In this document: piece after piece, positions 4,532 through 20,103 of the stretch
How the letters are laid out: every line of letters starts with the position of its first letter
Position numbering within the stretch: the first letter of the stretch is position 1
Assembly (NCBI RefSeq): GCF_023150235.1
Contig: NZ_JAKLLH010000010.1
Span: forward strand, 62,001-126,000
Direction: 5' to 3'
Length of the DNA: 64,000 bases
From: Azonexus sp.
Lineage (GTDB): Bacteria > Pseudomonadota > Gammaproteobacteria > Burkholderiales > Rhodocyclaceae
Program-made: the position numbers and the translations under genes
Notes under the pieces: model-generated
Databases searched by the model: none
Told to the model about the DNA's origin: nothing
The model's input: the letters and a program-made list of their open reading frames with translations, nothing else

Positions 4532-4557
4532 TCCGGGCGCATTTATGGTTGAATGAG

Positions 4558-4580
4558 GCCCCCGCGCGCGGGGGCTTTTT
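4558..4580 (+). terminator. Rho-independent terminator of icd
   Basis: GCCCCCGC and GCGGGGGC form a GC-rich stem around a short loop, followed immediately by TTTTTCTTT. It lies 27 bases after the icd stop and just before murI. Confidence 0.9.
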
Positions 4581-4601: not shown

Positions 4602-5387
4602 GTGAACGCTCGCCCGATTGCTGTCTTCGATTCCGGCCTTGGTGGCTTGACCGTGTTGCGCGCCCTGCAGGCGCGCCTGCCGCACGAAGACTATTTCTAT
4701 TTCGCCGACACCCGGCACTTGCCGTATGGCGACAAGCCCGAGGTGTTCTTGCGCGAGCGCGGGGTCAGCATCGCAACCGCGCTCGCGGCACAAGGGGCCA
4801 AGGCGCTGGTGATCGCCTGCAACACGGCGACGGCGGCAGCGGCCGAAGCGATCCGGGCCGCGACCGCCTTGCCCATCGTCGCCCTGGAGCCTGGCGTCAA
4901 GCCGGCCTGCAATCTCAGCCGCAGCGGCATCATCGGTGTTTTGGCGACGACGCGGACGCTGGCCAGCGAACGCTTTCAGCGGCTGGTTGCCGAGCATGGC
5001 CGAGGCCAGCAGGTGCTCGCCCAAGCTTGCCCCGGCCTGGCCGAAACAATAGAGCGCGACGGGCCGGGCAGTGCTGCGGTTGAAGACTTGCTGGACCGCT
5101 ACCTGGCGCCGCTCAACGCCGCCGGCGCCGATGTCGTGGTCCTCGGCTGCACGCATTACCCCTGGGTCGCCGAGGCGATTGCCCGCCGCATGCCGGCCGG
5201 CACCCAATTGCTCGATACCGGCGCCGCAGTCGCCCGTCAGCTCGAACGCCTGCTTGCCGCTGGCGGCCTGCTCGGCGGCGGCAGCGGCCGCTGCCAATTG
5301 GCGACCAGCGGCGGGCCGGAGCGGGTCGCCGCCACGGTCGACCGGCTCTTCGGGCAAAAAATCCCGGTCGCGCACTGGGAACCCTGA
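4602..5387 (+). CDS. murI: Glutamate racemase
   Basis: A 261-residue enzyme that converts L- to D-glutamate for peptidoglycan synthesis. The hallmark FDSGLGGLTVL at the N-terminus holds the catalytic Asp/Ser pair, and both catalytic cysteines are present: C73 in VIACNTATAAA and C183 in VLGCTHYPW. The start codon is GTG, just downstream of the icd terminator. A half copy of the window-wide palindrome (CACGGTCGAC, 5333-5342) lies in the last codons, read as TVDR. Directly downstream is the AT-richer ATPase/TOPRIM pair, which appears to be inserted after this gene. Confidence 0.96.
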   Translation: MNARPIAVFDSGLGGLTVLRALQARLPHEDYFYFADTRHLPYGDKPEVFLRERGVSIATALAAQGAKALVIACNTATAAAAEAIRAATALPIVALEPGVKPACNLSRSGIIGVLATTRTLASERFQRLVAEHGRGQQVLAQACPGLAETIERDGPGSAAVEDLLDRYLAPLNAAGADVVVLGCTHYPWVAEAIARRMPAGTQLLDTGAAVARQLERLLAAGGLLGGGSGRCQLATSGGPERVAATVDRLFGQKIPVAHWEP

Positions 5388-5418
5388 ACGAGTTCAAAAT
5401 CCTGTATTGTCAAAGACT

Positions 5419-6597
5419 ATGAGTCATCAGGAATCGGTAATAGATATGTCGAAATACCCTCTGGAGCAGATTGAAGTCGACGGATTTCGTGGCTTTCGAG
5501 AGTTCACTCTTGCCGGGCTGGGTGCTGTAAATGTTTTGGTCGGTGGCAATAACTGTGGAAAAACGAGCCTACTCGAAGCGATATCGGTGTTGTCAGCACC
5601 TGTTGACCCAGACAGCCTCATGGAGATGATTCGTGGGAGAGATTCCGGGGGGATAGACGAGTCCAGGTTGGATTCATTGCGTTGGTGTTTTCGCCGCGAT
5701 GCCCCTTTTACTGACCCCGAGGAGTTGGTTTCTGCCTGTTGTGAAATTCGGGTTAAAGGCTTGTTTAAGCTAGAACAGCTGCGGATTACTCTGATTGAAC
5801 TTTTGGGGGAGCCTGGCTCTCGGGAATTGGAACGGGGCAGGCGATTCGGCCGGCTGACTGACTCTGAAAAACTGGACCAAGCGTGGCGTGGTTCAAGTGT
5901 CCGTTACGAGCCTATTTTTTCCAGTGAGCTGGAGTTGGCCGAGAAATATTCCATGCTTGAAATGCTGGTTTGGGAGGGCTTGCCGATTACGCGGGCGGCA
6001 GGATTAAAAAGAAAAACCGGACCACATCTGGCTTGCGCAATGATTTACCCCCATGCATATCGAATCAACGCGGTCCAGGTGCAGTTGTTGTCACGCCAAC
6101 GTTTCCAGCAAGGGGAAAACCTGGAAACGGAGTTGCTCCGGCATTTCGATCCAGAGATTGAGGAGGTAATTGTTGGATCGAGCCGAGGCTTGCGGCCATC
6201 AATTTATCTTCGGCATAGACGTCTTGGCGTGGTTCCTCTCTCTGTGTTTGGTGATGCGATGCGTCGTTCGGTACTGCTCGCCTCCACTTTGAGTGCCTTG
6301 CCACCTGGTGGGGTGTTGTTGATTGATGAGGCGGAGGCAGGCATCCATGTTGAAGCTCAGGCAAAATATTTTGCCTGGCTGATGGGGGCTGCACGCCAGC
6401 GCCAGGTCCAGGTATTCATGACGACGCACAGTCTGGAGGCGCTGGATGCGATTTTGATGGGGCAGGACAGTTCATCGGAAGATGGGGCGGTTGTCGTCTA
6501 TCAGCTCAAGCGCGATGGGGCTGATATCCACAGCAAACGCTTTGCCGGTGACTTGTTGCACCGCTTGCGCTTTGAGCGCGGCCTCGACTTGAGGTAA
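5419..6597 (+). CDS. AAA family ATPase (OLD/RecF-like, AAA_15/AAA_21 type)
   Basis: A 392-residue SMC/RecF/OLD-like ATPase. Visible features: the N-terminal beta strand EQIEVDGFRGFREF typical of the family, Walker A GGNNCGKT (residues 42-49), a signature-like segment LSVFGDAMRRS near 274-284, Walker B VLLIDEAEAGIH with D303-E304, and a switch histidine in MTTHSLEAL (H337). It overlaps no neighbour and is followed 6 bases later by a TOPRIM-type gene. This two-gene layout matches ATPase plus TOPRIM nuclease anti-phage modules such as PARIS or split OLD systems (family knowledge); function here is inference. Base composition is visibly more AT-rich than murI or the CoA-transferase. An alternative ATG lies at 5446; neither has a strong ribosome binding site. 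Confidence 0.88.
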   Translation: MSHQESVIDMSKYPLEQIEVDGFRGFREFTLAGLGAVNVLVGGNNCGKTSLLEAISVLSAPVDPDSLMEMIRGRDSGGIDESRLDSLRWCFRRDAPFTDPEELVSACCEIRVKGLFKLEQLRITLIELLGEPGSRELERGRRFGRLTDSEKLDQAWRGSSVRYEPIFSSELELAEKYSMLEMLVWEGLPITRAAGLKRKTGPHLACAMIYPHAYRINAVQVQLLSRQRFQQGENLETELLRHFDPEIEEVIVGSSRGLRPSIYLRHRRLGVVPLSVFGDAMRRSVLLASTLSALPPGGVLLIDEAEAGIHVEAQAKYFAWLMGAARQRQVQVFMTTHSLEALDAILMGQDSSSEDGAVVVYQLKRDGADIHSKRFAGDLLHRLRFERGLDLR

Positions 6598-6603
6598 GGG
6601 TTG

Positions 6604-7416
6604 ATGCGCAAATATGGTTATCTTGTGGTCGAAGGACCGCATGATGTCGAGTTTTGTTATCGCCTGCTGAGTGGTGGCAATCGCGCTTCTGGCTTACAGC
6701 GAGTTCAGAGTCTGGCTGACTTGGATAAAGAGTTGAAAGTCTTGGTGCCGGATAAATTTCCTCATAAAGGTGATTTGCAAAAGCGGGTTCCTGTACCGCT
6801 ATTTTTGCAAAGCAAGACACACAGCATTGCAATTCATAGTGCTGTTGGGGATTCAAATCTGGTGGACAGGCTGGAAGAAACTGTTGCGATGCTGAATAAG
6901 TTCCCCTTCACTGGCTTGGGGATCATGCTCGATTCTGACAGTCAGGAAACCTCTGCAAAGCGTTATAGCCAATTGCGTGAGCGAGTGAAGAAAACAAGCA
7001 TGGGGCTGAGCTTCCCGGTATCTCCGGGGGCGGTTGCATCAGGCCCACCGCGTTGCGGCGCATTTGTTTTGCCCGACAATGCCAGCCAAGGTACGCTGGA
7101 AGATCTATTACTTGAGAGTGCGGCTGTTCAGTATGCCAATCTGCTGCCTGTTGCAAAGAACTATGTCGATGCTGCAATAAGAGAAAATTTGATTCCCCAA
7201 AATCACCGTCAGGACATTGACAAACCTGCCGGGCGTAACAAGGCCGTGATTGGGGCTATGGCCACCTTGTTCAAGCCGGGAAAAGCCATACAGACCTCGA
7301 TCCAGGATAATGCCTGGTTACGGGCAGAAGCGCTTTCCATTCCGAAGATCAAGGCCGTGCAGCAGTTCCTGGCCGACTTGTTTGATTTGCCCATCGAACA
7401 CAGCAGTGAATCTTGA
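6604..7416 (+). CDS. DUF3226-like TOPRIM-domain protein, ATPase partner
   Basis: A 270-residue protein with TOPRIM-fold hallmarks: YLVVEGPHDVEF with the conserved Glu (E10) and Asp (D14), and GIMLDSDSQ with the D-x-D pair (D110, D112) that binds metal in DnaG, topoisomerases and OLD nucleases. FVLPDNASQGTLEDLLLE (residues 154-171) matches the PDN...LED signature I associate with DUF3226. It probably supplies nuclease activity gated by the upstream ATPase (inference). The ATG at 6604 has GAGGTAAGGG directly upstream; a TTG lies one codon earlier. Its stop is separated by one base from the CoA-transferase start, and its composition is AT-rich. Confidence 0.82.
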   Translation: MRKYGYLVVEGPHDVEFCYRLLSGGNRASGLQRVQSLADLDKELKVLVPDKFPHKGDLQKRVPVPLFLQSKTHSIAIHSAVGDSNLVDRLEETVAMLNKFPFTGLGIMLDSDSQETSAKRYSQLRERVKKTSMGLSFPVSPGAVASGPPRCGAFVLPDNASQGTLEDLLLESAAVQYANLLPVAKNYVDAAIRENLIPQNHRQDIDKPAGRNKAVIGAMATLFKPGKAIQTSIQDNAWLRAEALSIPKIKAVQQFLADLFDLPIEHSSES

Positions 7417-7417
7417 A

Positions 7418-8617
7418 ATGAGCGAAAAGCAAAAACCTTTGGCCGGGCTCAAGGTGGTCGAACTTGGCACCTTGATCGCCGGCCCGTTCTGTACCCGGAT
7501 CATGGGCGAGTTCGGTGCCGAGGTGATCAAGGTCGAGGCGCCGGATGGCGGCGATCCGCTGCGCAAATGGCGCAAGCTCTACGAGGGCACCTCGCTGTGG
7601 TGGTACGTGCAGGCGCGCAACAAGAAGTCGGTGACCGCCAACCTCAAGCACCCGGACGGGCGCGAGTTCGTGCGCCGGCTGATCGCCGAGGCCGACATCC
7701 TGGTCGAGAATTTCCGCCCCGGCGTGCTCGAGAAGCTGGGCCTCGGCTGGGAGGCGCTCAAGGCCGCCAATCCCGGCCTGGTCATGGTCCGTCTCTCGGG
7801 CTTCGGCCAGAGCGGGCCGTACAAGGAGCAGCCGGGCTTTGGCGCGGTCGGCGAGTCGATGGGCGGGTTGCGCTACATCACCGGTTTTGCCGACCGGCCG
7901 CCGGTGCGCACCGGGATTTCGATCGGCGATTCGATTGCCGCTTTGTGGGGCGCCATCGGCGCGCTGATGGCCTTACGCCACAAGGAGGTCAATGGCGGGG
8001 CCGGACAGGTGGTCGATGTCGCACTCTACGAAGCGGTGTTCGCGATGATGGAATCACTGGTGCCGGAGTTCGACGTCTTCGGCTTCGTCCGCGAACGCAC
8101 CGGCAACATCATGCCCGGCATCACCCCATCGAATACCCATACCACCCGCGACGGCAAGCACGTGACCATCGGCGCCAACGGCGATGCGATCTTCCGCCGC
8201 TTCATGCTCGCCATCGGTCGTGCCGACCTCGCCGACGATCCGGCGCTGGCCGACAACGCCGGCCGTGACGCGCGGCGCGACGAAATCTATGCCGTGATCG
8301 ACGGCTGGTGTGCCGCCCACGACGAGGCCGAGGTGCTGGCGGTGCTCGAACAGGCCGAGGTGCCGGCCTCGCGCGTCTATTCTGCGGTCGACATGTTCGC
8401 CGACCCGCAATTCATCGCCCGCCAGATGTTCGCGACGGCGCAGCTGCCGGACGGCAAGGCCTTCAAGATGCCGGGGATCATCCCCAAGCTGTCGGAAACG
8501 CCCGGCGCCACCGAGTGGATCGGCCCGACGCTGGGCGAGCACACCGATACGGTGCTTGCCGCACTGGGTTACAAGGCCGAAGAAATCGCCCGACTACACC
8601 GGGAAGCGGCCGTTTAG
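7418..8617 (+). CDS. CaiB/BaiF CoA-transferase family III protein
   Basis: A 399-residue class III CoA-transferase. LAGLKVVELGTLIAGPFCTRIMGEFGAEVIKVE is the family N-terminus; VENFRPGVLEKLG, RLSGFGQSGPY and GQVVDVALYEA (containing the probable catalytic Asp) follow. The enzyme moves CoA between carboxylic acids; donor and acceptor are not predictable. The start at MSEKQKPLAG begins one base after the stop of the TOPRIM gene and has no clear ribosome binding site of its own, so it may be translated by coupling. Codon and GC usage return to the high-GC norm here, unlike the two preceding genes. Confidence 0.93.
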   Translation: MSEKQKPLAGLKVVELGTLIAGPFCTRIMGEFGAEVIKVEAPDGGDPLRKWRKLYEGTSLWWYVQARNKKSVTANLKHPDGREFVRRLIAEADILVENFRPGVLEKLGLGWEALKAANPGLVMVRLSGFGQSGPYKEQPGFGAVGESMGGLRYITGFADRPPVRTGISIGDSIAALWGAIGALMALRHKEVNGGAGQVVDVALYEAVFAMMESLVPEFDVFGFVRERTGNIMPGITPSNTHTTRDGKHVTIGANGDAIFRRFMLAIGRADLADDPALADNAGRDARRDEIYAVIDGWCAAHDEAEVLAVLEQAEVPASRVYSAVDMFADPQFIARQMFATAQLPDGKAFKMPGIIPKLSETPGATEWIGPTLGEHTDTVLAALGYKAEEIARLHREAAV

Positions 8618-13755: not shown

Positions 13756-14123
13756 TTTTCCTCCCGTTTTCCACCGGGCCGGCGCAGGCGGCCCAACAGA
13801 TGCAGGAAATCGGCCGCCAGGGCCTGGCCTGCCGGAACCTGCGGCCGGGCGTGCAACCTGACCACCAGATCATAGGCGGGCAGATCGGCACGGCGCAGAC
13901 GAAACTGCTCGCGAACGATGCGTTTGACCCGATTACGGTCAACCGCCCGTTTGAGCAATTTTTTGCCGACAACCAGACCGAGCCGGGCCGAGTCGAATCC
14001 GGCGGGACGCGGCTGAAAATGCAACATCAGCCATTGCCCGCGAATCGCCCTCCTGAAACCAAAAACGGATGAATACTCATCCGTTTTGGTCAGTCGGTGG
14101 CGTCTGGCGAAGCTGAAATTCAC
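13752..14123 (-). CDS. rnpA: Ribonuclease P protein component
   Basis: A 123-residue basic protein that binds RNase P RNA and helps mature tRNA 5' ends. [12 protein letters not shown] at the N-terminus and [24 protein letters not shown] (the RNR motif) are diagnostic. It lies between rpmH and yidD, overlapping yidD by 4 bases. The C-terminus (about 25 residues, Arg/Pro-rich) is longer than the core fold but within the family range. Confidence 0.96.
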
Positions 14124-14144
14124 TTCGCCTATCGTCCGGGCTGC

Positions 14145-14279
14145 TTAAACAGCCAGACGCTTGCGGCCCTTGGCGCGGCGAGCAGCCAGAACGGCACGGC
14201 CGCCCTTGGTGCGCGAACGAACCAGGAAGCCATGGGTGCGCTTGCGGCGCACGACCGACGGTTGATACGTGCGTTTCAT
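14145..14279 (-). CDS. rpmH: 50S ribosomal protein L34
   Basis: A 44-residue highly basic protein reading [19 protein letters not shown] and ending AKGRKRLAV, the near-invariant L34 sequence. It is the first gene of the minus-strand block and is divergent from dnaA. Its promoter must lie in the 14280-14499 spacer. Confidence 0.97.
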
Positions 14280-14364
14280 GTCGTAATCCCTTGATGTGCT
14301 AAGAAAAACACGTTATTACACATTGACGCAAGCTAGTCTGTCAAGGAAATTTATTTACCAACGC

Positions 14365-14373
14365 TGTGGATAA
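14365..14373 (-). promoter_or_regulatory. DnaA box (perfect)
   Basis: TGTGGATAA, reverse complement of the consensus TTATCCACA, about 125 bases upstream of the dnaA start. Confidence 0.7.
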
Positions 14374-14376
14374 CTT

Positions 14377-14385
14377 TGTGGATGA
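14377..14385 (-). promoter_or_regulatory. DnaA box (one mismatch)
   Basis: TGTGGATGA, reverse complement TCATCCACA, 12 bases from the perfect box and in the same orientation, so nearly one helical turn apart. Confidence 0.55.
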
Positions 14386-14499
14386 GCTGTAGAATTCTCC
14401 CCCTTCCCGGCCGCACACGGTCAATCGGAATTCCGATAATTTTTCAATAAATCAAATAATTAGCCTTTGCCAACGGCACCGGCTGGAGTCTTTTTTCCT

Positions 14500-15942
14500 A
14501 TGGCCGCATTCTGGGAATCCTGTCTCACGCGTTTTGAACAGGAACTGCCGACCCAGCAGTTCAACACCTGGATCAAACCCTTGCGGTTTGAAGGTGAAGC
14601 CGCCCCGGCGGAAGAAGGCCTGCGCCTGATCGCACCCAACAGCTTCATCCTCAAATGGGTGCGCGACCGCTACCTGTCGCGGATCGAGGAATACGCCCGC
14701 AGCTTCTACTCGGCACCGGTCAGCATCGCACTGGTGATCGGCAACACCAAGCCGCCGGTCGCCCGCGGCGAACAGCCGGCAACCGCAGCCCCCGCGCCGG
14801 CTCCCGGACTTGCCGAGCCCGCGGCCACTGGCGTGACTTCGACCAAGGCCATGCAACGGGTAGTTTCGCCGGCAGCCCCGGCTTCCGGCAGCGACAAGCC
14901 GCGCAGCCGAATGAGCAATTACGAAAAATCGCGCTTGTTCTCGACCTTCACCTTCGACAACCTGGTCGTCGGCAAGGCCAACGACCTGGCCCGCGCCGCC
15001 GCCGTGCAGGTCGCCGGCAACCCCGGCGGTGCCTACAACCCGCTGTTCATCTACGGCGGTGCCGGTCTCGGCAAAACCCACCTGATCCACGCCATCGGCA
15101 ACGCCATCCTGCGCGAGAACCCGGACAAGGTCGTCCGCTACGTGCATGCCGAGGACTACTACTCCGACGTCGTCCGCGCCTATCAGCAAAAATCCTTCGA
15201 CAGCTTCAAGCGCGCCTACCGCACGCTAGACGTGCTGCTGCTCGACGACGTGCAGTTCTTCAACGGCAAGAACCGCTCGCAGGAAGAGTTTTTCTTCCTC
15301 TTCAACGCGCTGATCGAAGCCCGCAAGCAGATCATCCTGACCTGCGACACCTATCCCAAGGACATCAACGGTCTCGATGACCGGCTGGTCACCCGTTTCG
15401 ACTGGGGTCTGACCGTGCAGATCGAGCCGCCCGAACTGGAAATGCGGGTCGCCATCCTGAAGAAGAAAGCCGAAGCCGAAGACCTGCAGTTGAACGACGA
15501 AGTCGCTTTCTTCATCGCCAAGCACCTGCGCTCGAATGTCCGCGAACTCGAAGGCGCCTTGAAGAAGGTCCTCGCTTATTCCTCCTTCCACGGCCGCCCG
15601 ATCGCCCTCGACCTGGCCAAGGAGGCGCTGAAGGATGTCATCGGCTCGGTCCGCAACGTCGGCATGGATTACATCCAGAAGACCGTCGCCGACTACTACA
15701 AGATCAAGGTCGCCGACCTGTTCTCGAAGAAGCGCACGCGGGCGATTGCCCGGCCGCGCCAGGTGGCGATGTGGCTGTGCCGCGAAGTCACCTCGCACAG
15801 CTTCCCGGAAATCGGCGATGCCTTTGGCGGCCGCGATCACACGACGGTGATTCACGCGGTCAAGACCATCGATTCGCTGCGCACCAAGGAAAACGAACTC
15901 AACCACGATCTGCACGTGTTGTTGCAGGTCCTGAAGGGCTGA
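14500..15942 (+). CDS. dnaA: Chromosomal replication initiator DnaA
   Basis: A 480-residue AAA+ initiator. Domain I is FWESCLTRFEQELPTQQFNTWI; an Ala/Pro-rich linker runs to about residue 140; the ATPase has YGGAGLGKTHLIHAI (Walker A, residues 185-199) and LLLDDVQFF (Walker B); domain IV ends with the DnaA-box reading helix GGRDHTTVIHAVKTI. The start MAAFWES is chosen by homology and a TGGAG sequence upstream; a TTG frame extension of 11 codons is less likely. It initiates replication at oriC and is probably autoregulated through the boxes upstream. Confidence 0.97.
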   Translation: MAAFWESCLTRFEQELPTQQFNTWIKPLRFEGEAAPAEEGLRLIAPNSFILKWVRDRYLSRIEEYARSFYSAPVSIALVIGNTKPPVARGEQPATAAPAPAPGLAEPAATGVTSTKAMQRVVSPAAPASGSDKPRSRMSNYEKSRLFSTFTFDNLVVGKANDLARAAAVQVAGNPGGAYNPLFIYGGAGLGKTHLIHAIGNAILRENPDKVVRYVHAEDYYSDVVRAYQQKSFDSFKRAYRTLDVLLLDDVQFFNGKNRSQEEFFFLFNALIEARKQIILTCDTYPKDINGLDDRLVTRFDWGLTVQIEPPELEMRVAILKKKAEAEDLQLNDEVAFFIAKHLRSNVRELEGALKKVLAYSSFHGRPIALDLAKEALKDVIGSVRNVGMDYIQKTVADYYKIKVADLFSKKRTRAIARPRQVAMWLCREVTSHSFPEIGDAFGGRDHTTVIHAVKTIDSLRTKENELNHDLHVLLQVLKG

Positions 15943-15960
15943 TTTCAGGCAAAAGTCGAA

Positions 15961-16175
15961 CAAGTCTGGGGAAAAGCTGTCGGCCAGTTGGGGAAAGAAG
16001 GGCTTGCGGCGCACAACGCAAAAATTGCCCGCAATCCATCCACAGCCAATCCAGAGGCTTTCGCAGACCCTTTTTTGTTATTCAAGTTACTGAAAAAAAT
16101 GGAAAAAATCGACTTGTCCACAGAGTAGTTCCTTGCTTATTCATTATTGTCTTTTTATATACAGTTCTTACTAAA
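15961..16175 (+). repeat. Origin duplication unit A (decayed)
   Basis: Aligned column by column with unit B at an exact +300 offset: CAAGTCTG at 15961, AAAATTG at 16021, the identical 20-mer CACAGCCAATCCAGAGGCTT at 16041, a DnaA-box-like TTGTCCACA at 16114, TTTTATAT at 16153 and GTTCTTA at 16164. The dnaN start codon position reads ACA instead of ATG. Confidence 0.7.
16114..16122 (+). promoter_or_regulatory. DnaA-box-like site, unit A
   Basis: TTGTCCACA, one mismatch to TTATCCACA, in an AT-rich context. Confidence 0.55.
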
Positions 16176-16266
16176 GGACCAAGGGAAAACGTCGAGGAAG
16201 CAGAAACTGCGACCTGAAGGCAAAAAACCGGGAACGGCCTGAGCTGGGAACTGCTGTACACAAGTC

Positions 16267-16275
16267 TGTGAACAA
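16267..16275 (-). promoter_or_regulatory. DnaA-box-like site, minus strand
   Basis: TGTGAACAA, reverse complement TTGTTCACA, one mismatch to TTATNCACA. Confidence 0.45.
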
Positions 16276-16413
16276 GCTGTCTTTCCATTGGGGATGAAAC
16301 GACTGAAGCCAGTTTGTGGGAAAATTGTCCCGTTTTCGTCCACAGCCAATCCAGAGGCTTTTACAGACTCGAAAAATGATTGTAAGTAGATGATTTTTAA
16401 TTGAAATTCTGAG

Positions 16414-16422
16414 TTATCAACA
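16414..16422 (+). promoter_or_regulatory. DnaA-box-like site, unit B
   Basis: TTATCAACA, one mismatch to TTATCCACA, 300 bases from the equivalent site in unit A and 38 bases before the dnaN start. Confidence 0.55.
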
Positions 16423-16460
16423 GACTTGTTCCCGATATAGTCTTAGAAGGAATTTTATAT

Positions 16461-20103
<3,643 letters not shown>

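Follow-up and report, generated by a model that had tools for sequence, protein, structure and literature searches.

A horizontally acquired ATPase–DUF3226 gene pair in an Azonexus genome, probably a split OLD-type module

Introduction

Systems that combine an ATP-binding cassette (ABC) ATPase with a TOPRIM nuclease are known in fused and in split form. In OLD proteins of classes 1 and 2 (P2 Old, BpOLD, GajA) both parts lie in a single polypeptide, with a helicase downstream in class 2, whereas PARIS encodes them on separate adjacent genes and its AriB protein carries DUF4435, according to the accessible part of PMC9122126. Pairs of an ATPase and a DUF3226 TOPRIM protein are also already known as a type, as PADLOC-DB 2.0.0 (2023) lists both proteins as the candidate system PDC-M38. 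Here we analyse such a pair, inserted between murI and a CoA-transferase gene in a stretch of 64,000 nucleotides from an Azonexus genome (contig NZ_JAKLLH010000010.1, positions 62,001 to 126,000; hereafter the window).

A preliminary description of the locus proposed a two-protein defence module whose TOPRIM family is not usually listed as defensive. The latter point has to be given up, since the database lists the two proteins under the names PDC-M38B (TOPRIM) and PDC-M38A (ATPase), and the defence idea for this pair type is not new. What is new is a clean private insertion, an extremely divergent ATPase, a further, dissimilar pair elsewhere in the genome, an apparently repeated use of the purH–purD junction, a C-terminal arginine signature of the ATPase and an OLD-like residue set in DUF3226. 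The pair is probably an acquired, split-OLD-type two-protein module in which the ATPase would control the TOPRIM nuclease against phage or plasmid invasion.

Results

By sequence, the window pair is a strongly diverged member of the PDC-M38 kind. Its ATPase gives a full-length match to the PADLOC model PDLC04608 (1.3e-58, spanning residues 15-392), its TOPRIM protein matches six PDC-M38B models, and the gene order and one-strand adjacency are those of its relatives; it differs from them by an outlier ATPase and a TOPRIM domain longer by about 45 residues. All 43 aligned ATPase rows match the PDC-M38A side and all 43 TOPRIM rows match PDLC04624. Pfam assigns the ATPase to AAA_21 (1.5e-20) and AAA_15 (1.8e-15), and its AlphaFold2 (AF2) model (predicted local distance difference test score, 73.9) has Rad50, SMC and PtuA as the nearest solved folds. 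The TOPRIM protein scores 82.3 bits against DUF3226 (cut-off 27), with no other family at E up to 10.

The AriA model of PARIS also matches the window ATPase (1.1e-21), although the PDC-M38A and AbiLi models score better, the latter at 1.8e-31 and with 43/43 rows at 1e-20 or better. On the partner side, the AriB model matches 3 of the 43 TOPRIM rows (best 3.6e-4) and not the window protein itself, which has DUF3226 where AriB has DUF4435, and at E up to 10 the matches of this protein include no AbiLii model. With a partner from another family, the pair is neither PARIS nor AbiL as defined. In addition, three putative AriA proteins, encoded upstream of AriB matches, end soon past the switch histidine, whereas the window ATPase is about 40 residues longer. 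Septu shares the ATPase fold alone, which resembles PtuA, the partner being DUF3226 only and not the HNH protein PtuB. With OLD classes 1 and 2 the window protein shares the TOPRIM Glu and DxD (E10, D110 and D112) and, in the model, an OLD-type TOPRIM fold, but the two parts are separate genes here and the gene downstream is a CoA-transferase in place of the class 2 helicase.

The motifs of both proteins, their coordinates and the spacing of the genes agree with the preliminary description: Walker A and B and the switch histidine in the ATPase; VVEGPHD, LDSDS and PDN..LED in the TOPRIM protein; 6 bases between the genes, 31 past murI and one before the CoA-transferase. Both frames are intact and co-directional, and the insert leaves no room for a third gene. 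An alternative in-frame ATG of the ATPase at 5446 agrees with the start of most relatives. The pair is more AT-rich than its flanks, as had also been noted: GC content and GC at third codon positions (GC3) were 53/56% for the ATPase gene and 50/52% for the TOPRIM gene, as against 70/82% for murI and 66/86% for the CoA-transferase gene. The gene pair, its motifs and the contrast in composition are not due to chance.

A murI gene was recovered from 37 of the 40 genomes searched in the genus; we inspected 30 loci, 29 of them from other genomes. At all 29 the CoA-transferase adjoins murI, with no match to the ATPase or the TOPRIM protein between them, and at 11 of these relatives' junctions the end of murI and the start of the CoA-transferase overlap or lie a few bases apart. 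The insert occupies that same gap. Of 60 genomes searched in the genus, a single one has DUF3226, and with the window TOPRIM protein as query 4 of the 399 genomes covered in the order gave matches, the source genome included. The pair is thus horizontally acquired and foreign to the genome, and homologues were not found in conserved housekeeping synteny. No tRNA gene was found in the window, and the repeats shared by the flanks of the insert were short and partial. A terminator-like site lies ahead of murI (4555-4578), with none between murI and the pair. Because the 31-base gap between murI and the ATPase gene holds no promoter-like site, the pair is probably transcribed from the murI transcript.

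A scan of genome contigs gave at least 586 matching stretches, at least 558 of them relatives. Of these, 80 loci were kept and, together with five from viral contigs, make up 85 relative loci, chosen by similarity to the family alignment and not at random. They span Cyanobacteriota, Bacteroidota, Pseudomonadota, Chloroflexota and others. The ATPase gene stands directly upstream of the TOPRIM gene on the same strand in 84 of the 85, the exception (L105) having a short ATPase frame 1.5 kb upstream as the nearest. Samples drawn by taxonomy agree: across the phylum, DUF3226 occurred at 19 places in 15 of 398 genomes, with the ATPase next door at 15/15 places above the Pfam cut-off and 16/19 overall, and across the class PDLC04608 matches (1e-20) occurred in 5 of 274 genomes, with DUF3226 beside all six places. 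Together with the Pfam and PADLOC matches and the conserved residues, this adjacency bears out the earlier view of an OLD-like ATPase and TOPRIM two-gene module. Two tandem ATPase–DUF3226 pairs were seen in one genome (L015 and L022, on contig C199 of G611).

In sequence, the ATPase of the window stands far apart from the rest of its family. Its highest identity to any of the 84 other rows of the tree is 24% (27% by local BLAST), and its branch of 6.26 changes per column makes its placement unreliable. The window TOPRIM protein had no close relative among plasmids or phages by tblastn, nor in pattern scans of the genome and viral contigs; the window ATPase as query found none in viral contigs and two partial matches in plasmids. 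Family-level queries, unlike the window proteins, did reach relatives. Elsewhere in the tree, the ATPases of an Erysipelotrichaceae and a Limnohabitans locus (L115 and L132) fall inside Bacteroidota clades, reflecting either transfer or misbinned contigs.

Relatives travel on mobile elements. With one family member as query, nine plasmid records matched (Acinetobacter, Plesiomonas, Klebsiella, Citrobacter), and the ATPase gene precedes the DUF3226 gene in all three plasmids opened. The pair is almost the sole cargo of a 6.4 kb ColE10-type plasmid, comes after phage tail genes in a Plesiomonas plasmid, and has its ATPase annotated as two pieces both in a mobilizable Acinetobacter plasmid and in a plasmid of the archaeon M. 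jannaschii. Two other family members as queries gave no match in phages. The 41 other proteins on the five viral contigs include baseplate, tail fibre, P2 GpU, Zot-like and integrase families, as well as a single restriction endonuclease and a single DNA methyltransferase; these families were assigned to individual contigs for a few only.

In the DUF3226 protein an OLD-like TOPRIM fold is predicted, and its putative metal-binding residues and lysine appear to follow the class 2 OLD order. The acidic triad is in register, and D14, E166 and K213 stand in an order and secondary structure like those of BpOLD E404, E508 and K562. The insertion of about 45 residues contains the lowest-confidence part of the model, and the window protein is without family residues such as W154, M156, W221 and Q222.

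At the other end of the ATPase, an exact C-terminal arginine was found in 83 of 84 relatives' ATPases, mostly as E-x-R, and it is written with all six arginine codons, with or without gene overlap. Distant pairs (L017, L024, L028 and the archaeal L185) have extra residues beyond the arginine, and three open reading frames taken as AriA have no such ending. The tail may, at a guess, touch the TOPRIM partner. We also considered that this arginine corresponds to an arginine of fused OLD proteins, for which the alignment gave no support.

The source genome carries a second ATPase–DUF3226 pair, between purH and purD on contig C6 (L014, 329-2163). Its DUF3226 protein has 222 residues, its GC3 values are 45% and 40%, and it shares about 26% identity with the window pair over aligned parts. 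It ends just ahead of purD, the TOPRIM stop and the next ATG being a single base apart, as in the window pair. Elsewhere in the genus, purH precedes purD at each of the 29 loci examined, and neither pair has a match there. Pairs between purH and purD also occur at five further loci, on four Competibacteraceae contigs and another proteobacterial contig (L084, L092, L093, L095 and L107), where the stop codon of the TOPRIM gene and the start codon of purD overlap (ATGA), and at one locus (L082) a pair follows purH. In the ATPase tree the second-pair ATPase groups with that of viral contig L145 (100/99) and the Competibacteraceae ATPases make up a separate clade (100/100), groupings that do not support a common descent of the purH–purD inserts in the source genome and in Competibacteraceae. 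The position needs three changes on the tree, of which the starred branches force two; these gains or losses are read as separate arrivals, and the junction appears to have received such pairs at least twice. The purH–purD gap is variable in the genus, since several congeners (L152, L154, L163 and L171) hold other inserted sequence there, with a similar end.

The family as a whole does not follow the tight docking seen at murI and purH: the upstream gene was on the same strand at 53 of 81 loci, compared with 469 of 709 neighbour pairs in the background, and same-strand gaps below 60 bases made up 26% upstream and 16% downstream, compared with 30% in the background. Elsewhere in the window the GC content falls twice more, to as low as 42% (15751-16750 and 14001-14750).

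Table 1 Features of the locus, in window coordinates. Conservation counts refer to 43 aligned rows, window sequence included.
Feature	Position	Strand	Remarks
Inserted cassette	5388..7417	+	between murI TGA and CoA-transferase ATG
OLD/RecF-type ABC ATPase (PDC-M38A-like), 392 aa	5419..6597	+	Pfam, PADLOC, AF2 model
Walker A GGNNCGKT, residues 42-49	5542..5565	+	G42, N44, G47, K48 in 43/43
Walker B LLIDEAEAG, residues 300-308	6316..6342	+	D303, E304, G308 in 43/43
Switch residues H337-S338	6427..6432	+	43/43
C-terminal D-L-R tail, last residue arginine	6586..6594	+	family form E-x-R
DUF3226 TOPRIM protein (PDC-M38B-like), 270 aa, predicted nuclease	6604..7416	+	
TOPRIM motif 1, E10 and D14	6631..6645	+	each 42/43, one gap; pattern resembles BpOLD E400/E404
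Insertion of ~45 residues in TOPRIM domain	6676..6819	+	gap in each of the 21 relatives inspected (of 42)
TOPRIM motif 2, D110-x-D112	6931..6939	+	43/43
E166 (TLED), first helix past last strand	7099..7101	+	43/43; order/context like BpOLD E508
K213, C-terminal helical part	7240..7242	+	43/43; order/context like BpOLD K562
murI, upstream flank	4602..5387	+	stop at 5387, 31 bases ahead of 5419
CoA-transferase, downstream flank	7418..8617	+	ATG at 7418, one base past TOPRIM stop

Discussion

That the pair is a split-OLD-type module is argued from what we computed, namely the gene pairing, the predicted fold, the conserved catalytic-type residues, the foreign origin and the relatives on mobile elements. 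By analogy with PARIS, where a hexamer of the ATPase sequesters an effector that cleaves tRNA (drawn from the accessible parts of PMC12409363 and PMC9122126), and with OLD proteins, the ABC ATPase would oligomerise, bind the TOPRIM protein and hold it inactive; a cue from an invading phage or plasmid would alter the nucleotide state of the ATPase, and the altered ATPase would free or activate the nuclease, which would then cut nucleic acid by two-metal catalysis and so stop the invader or the infected cell. We lean slightly towards DNA as the substrate because the most similar solved nucleases are OLD nucleases; RNA or tRNA, for which PARIS is the precedent, is nearly as probable. Complex formation, sensing, cleavage and defence are all drawn from this analogy, and an anti-phage role is likely.

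Several observations weigh against this reading. In a Foldseek ranking of the TOPRIM model the only structure under E 0.001 was 2p62, with no OLD structure in the best 50 rows; this structure, PH0156 of Pyrococcus horikoshii, is titled hypothetical protein, shares 12-14% identity and was missed by the sequence profile. When the TOPRIM alignment profile was searched against PDB sequences, AriB appeared at 0.09 and neither 2p62 nor OLD was listed. Profile alignments were weak, covering 22 columns with a single GajA (E 0.12) and 59 columns with three AriB proteins (E 0.005), and stopped short of D14, E166 and K213, so that beyond E10 and DxD the match to OLD residues is one of order, spacing and secondary structure. 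Even within PDC-M38B, the best match of the window protein is 1.1e-10 and covers mostly part of its length. We found no experiment on the DUF3226 family and, in the open-access papers searched, no mention of DUF3226 or of PDC-M38, the PADLOC preprint being outside that search. Moreover, an OLD-family enzyme of Sulfolobales acts in the cell cycle, with no antiviral effect in the accessible part of the report (PMC12796447).

The neighbourhoods of relatives point the same way. The sample came from 45 of the 85 loci, all chromosomal, with crude gene calls, and was confined to proteins below 900 amino acids: 110 of the 167 genes near the pair and, as far genes, 110 of 110 lying 5 kb or more from it. 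PADLOC models (1e-15) were rare in the near genes (mad2 in two, mad3 in one), and the far genes held more (15 families, mad3 in four). The idea that the pairs sit in defence islands was therefore dropped: known defence models are not enriched near the pair relative to far genes, and of the survey suggested earlier only the adjacency of ATPase and DUF3226 stood.

This scarcity of known defence models nearby, the scattered relatives and the plasmid with the pair as nearly its sole cargo would also suit a selfish, toxin–antitoxin-like addiction cassette, in which the TOPRIM nuclease is the toxin restrained by the ATPase, the pair persists through harmful loss or plasmid stabilisation, and protection from phages is incidental. 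One AbiLii homologue is toxic alone, but its AbiLi partner gave no antitoxicity (both from the accessible part of PMC3985639), and in PARIS either gene could be deleted without toxicity and a toxin–antitoxin system was excluded by the authors, as far as the available part of that report goes (PMC9122126). We consider an addiction cassette unlikely.

Somewhat less likely again is a horizontally acquired function in cellular DNA metabolism, such as repair or the cell-cycle control by Cran1 of Sulfolobales, an OLD-family enzyme apparently outside virus defence. The ATPase model is like Rad50 and SMC heads, and many housekeeping families stand beside relatives (25 of 135 families inspected), though far genes are ordinary too. 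Presence in a single genome of the genus contrasts with the Cran1 clade, which is described as conserved across Sulfolobales (PMC12796447, accessible part for both statements), and two dissimilar copies in one genome together with carriage on plasmids are ill-suited to a core function. The very long ATPase branch and the missing tryptophans, methionine and glutamine of the TOPRIM partner might suggest an inactive remnant of a transferred cassette, which is very improbable given open frames, intact catalytic positions and a retained C-terminal arginine.

Within the split-OLD-type reading, we tentatively propose, as something we ourselves rather doubt, that DUF3226 pairs form a separate split OLD class in which control of the TOPRIM nuclease lies with the exact E-x-R tail of the ATPase and its C-terminal extension of 40 residues, and that some cassettes spread promoterless, docking seamlessly inside housekeeping operons and recurring at purH–purD in unrelated lineages. 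The E-x-R tail and the OLD-type residue set are handles for point mutations on how the ATPase might control the nuclease. If the pair works as proposed, DUF3226 would join the TOPRIM families of ATPase–nuclease defence systems, and the two dissimilar copies in one genome show how easily such pairs can enter operons of core genes.
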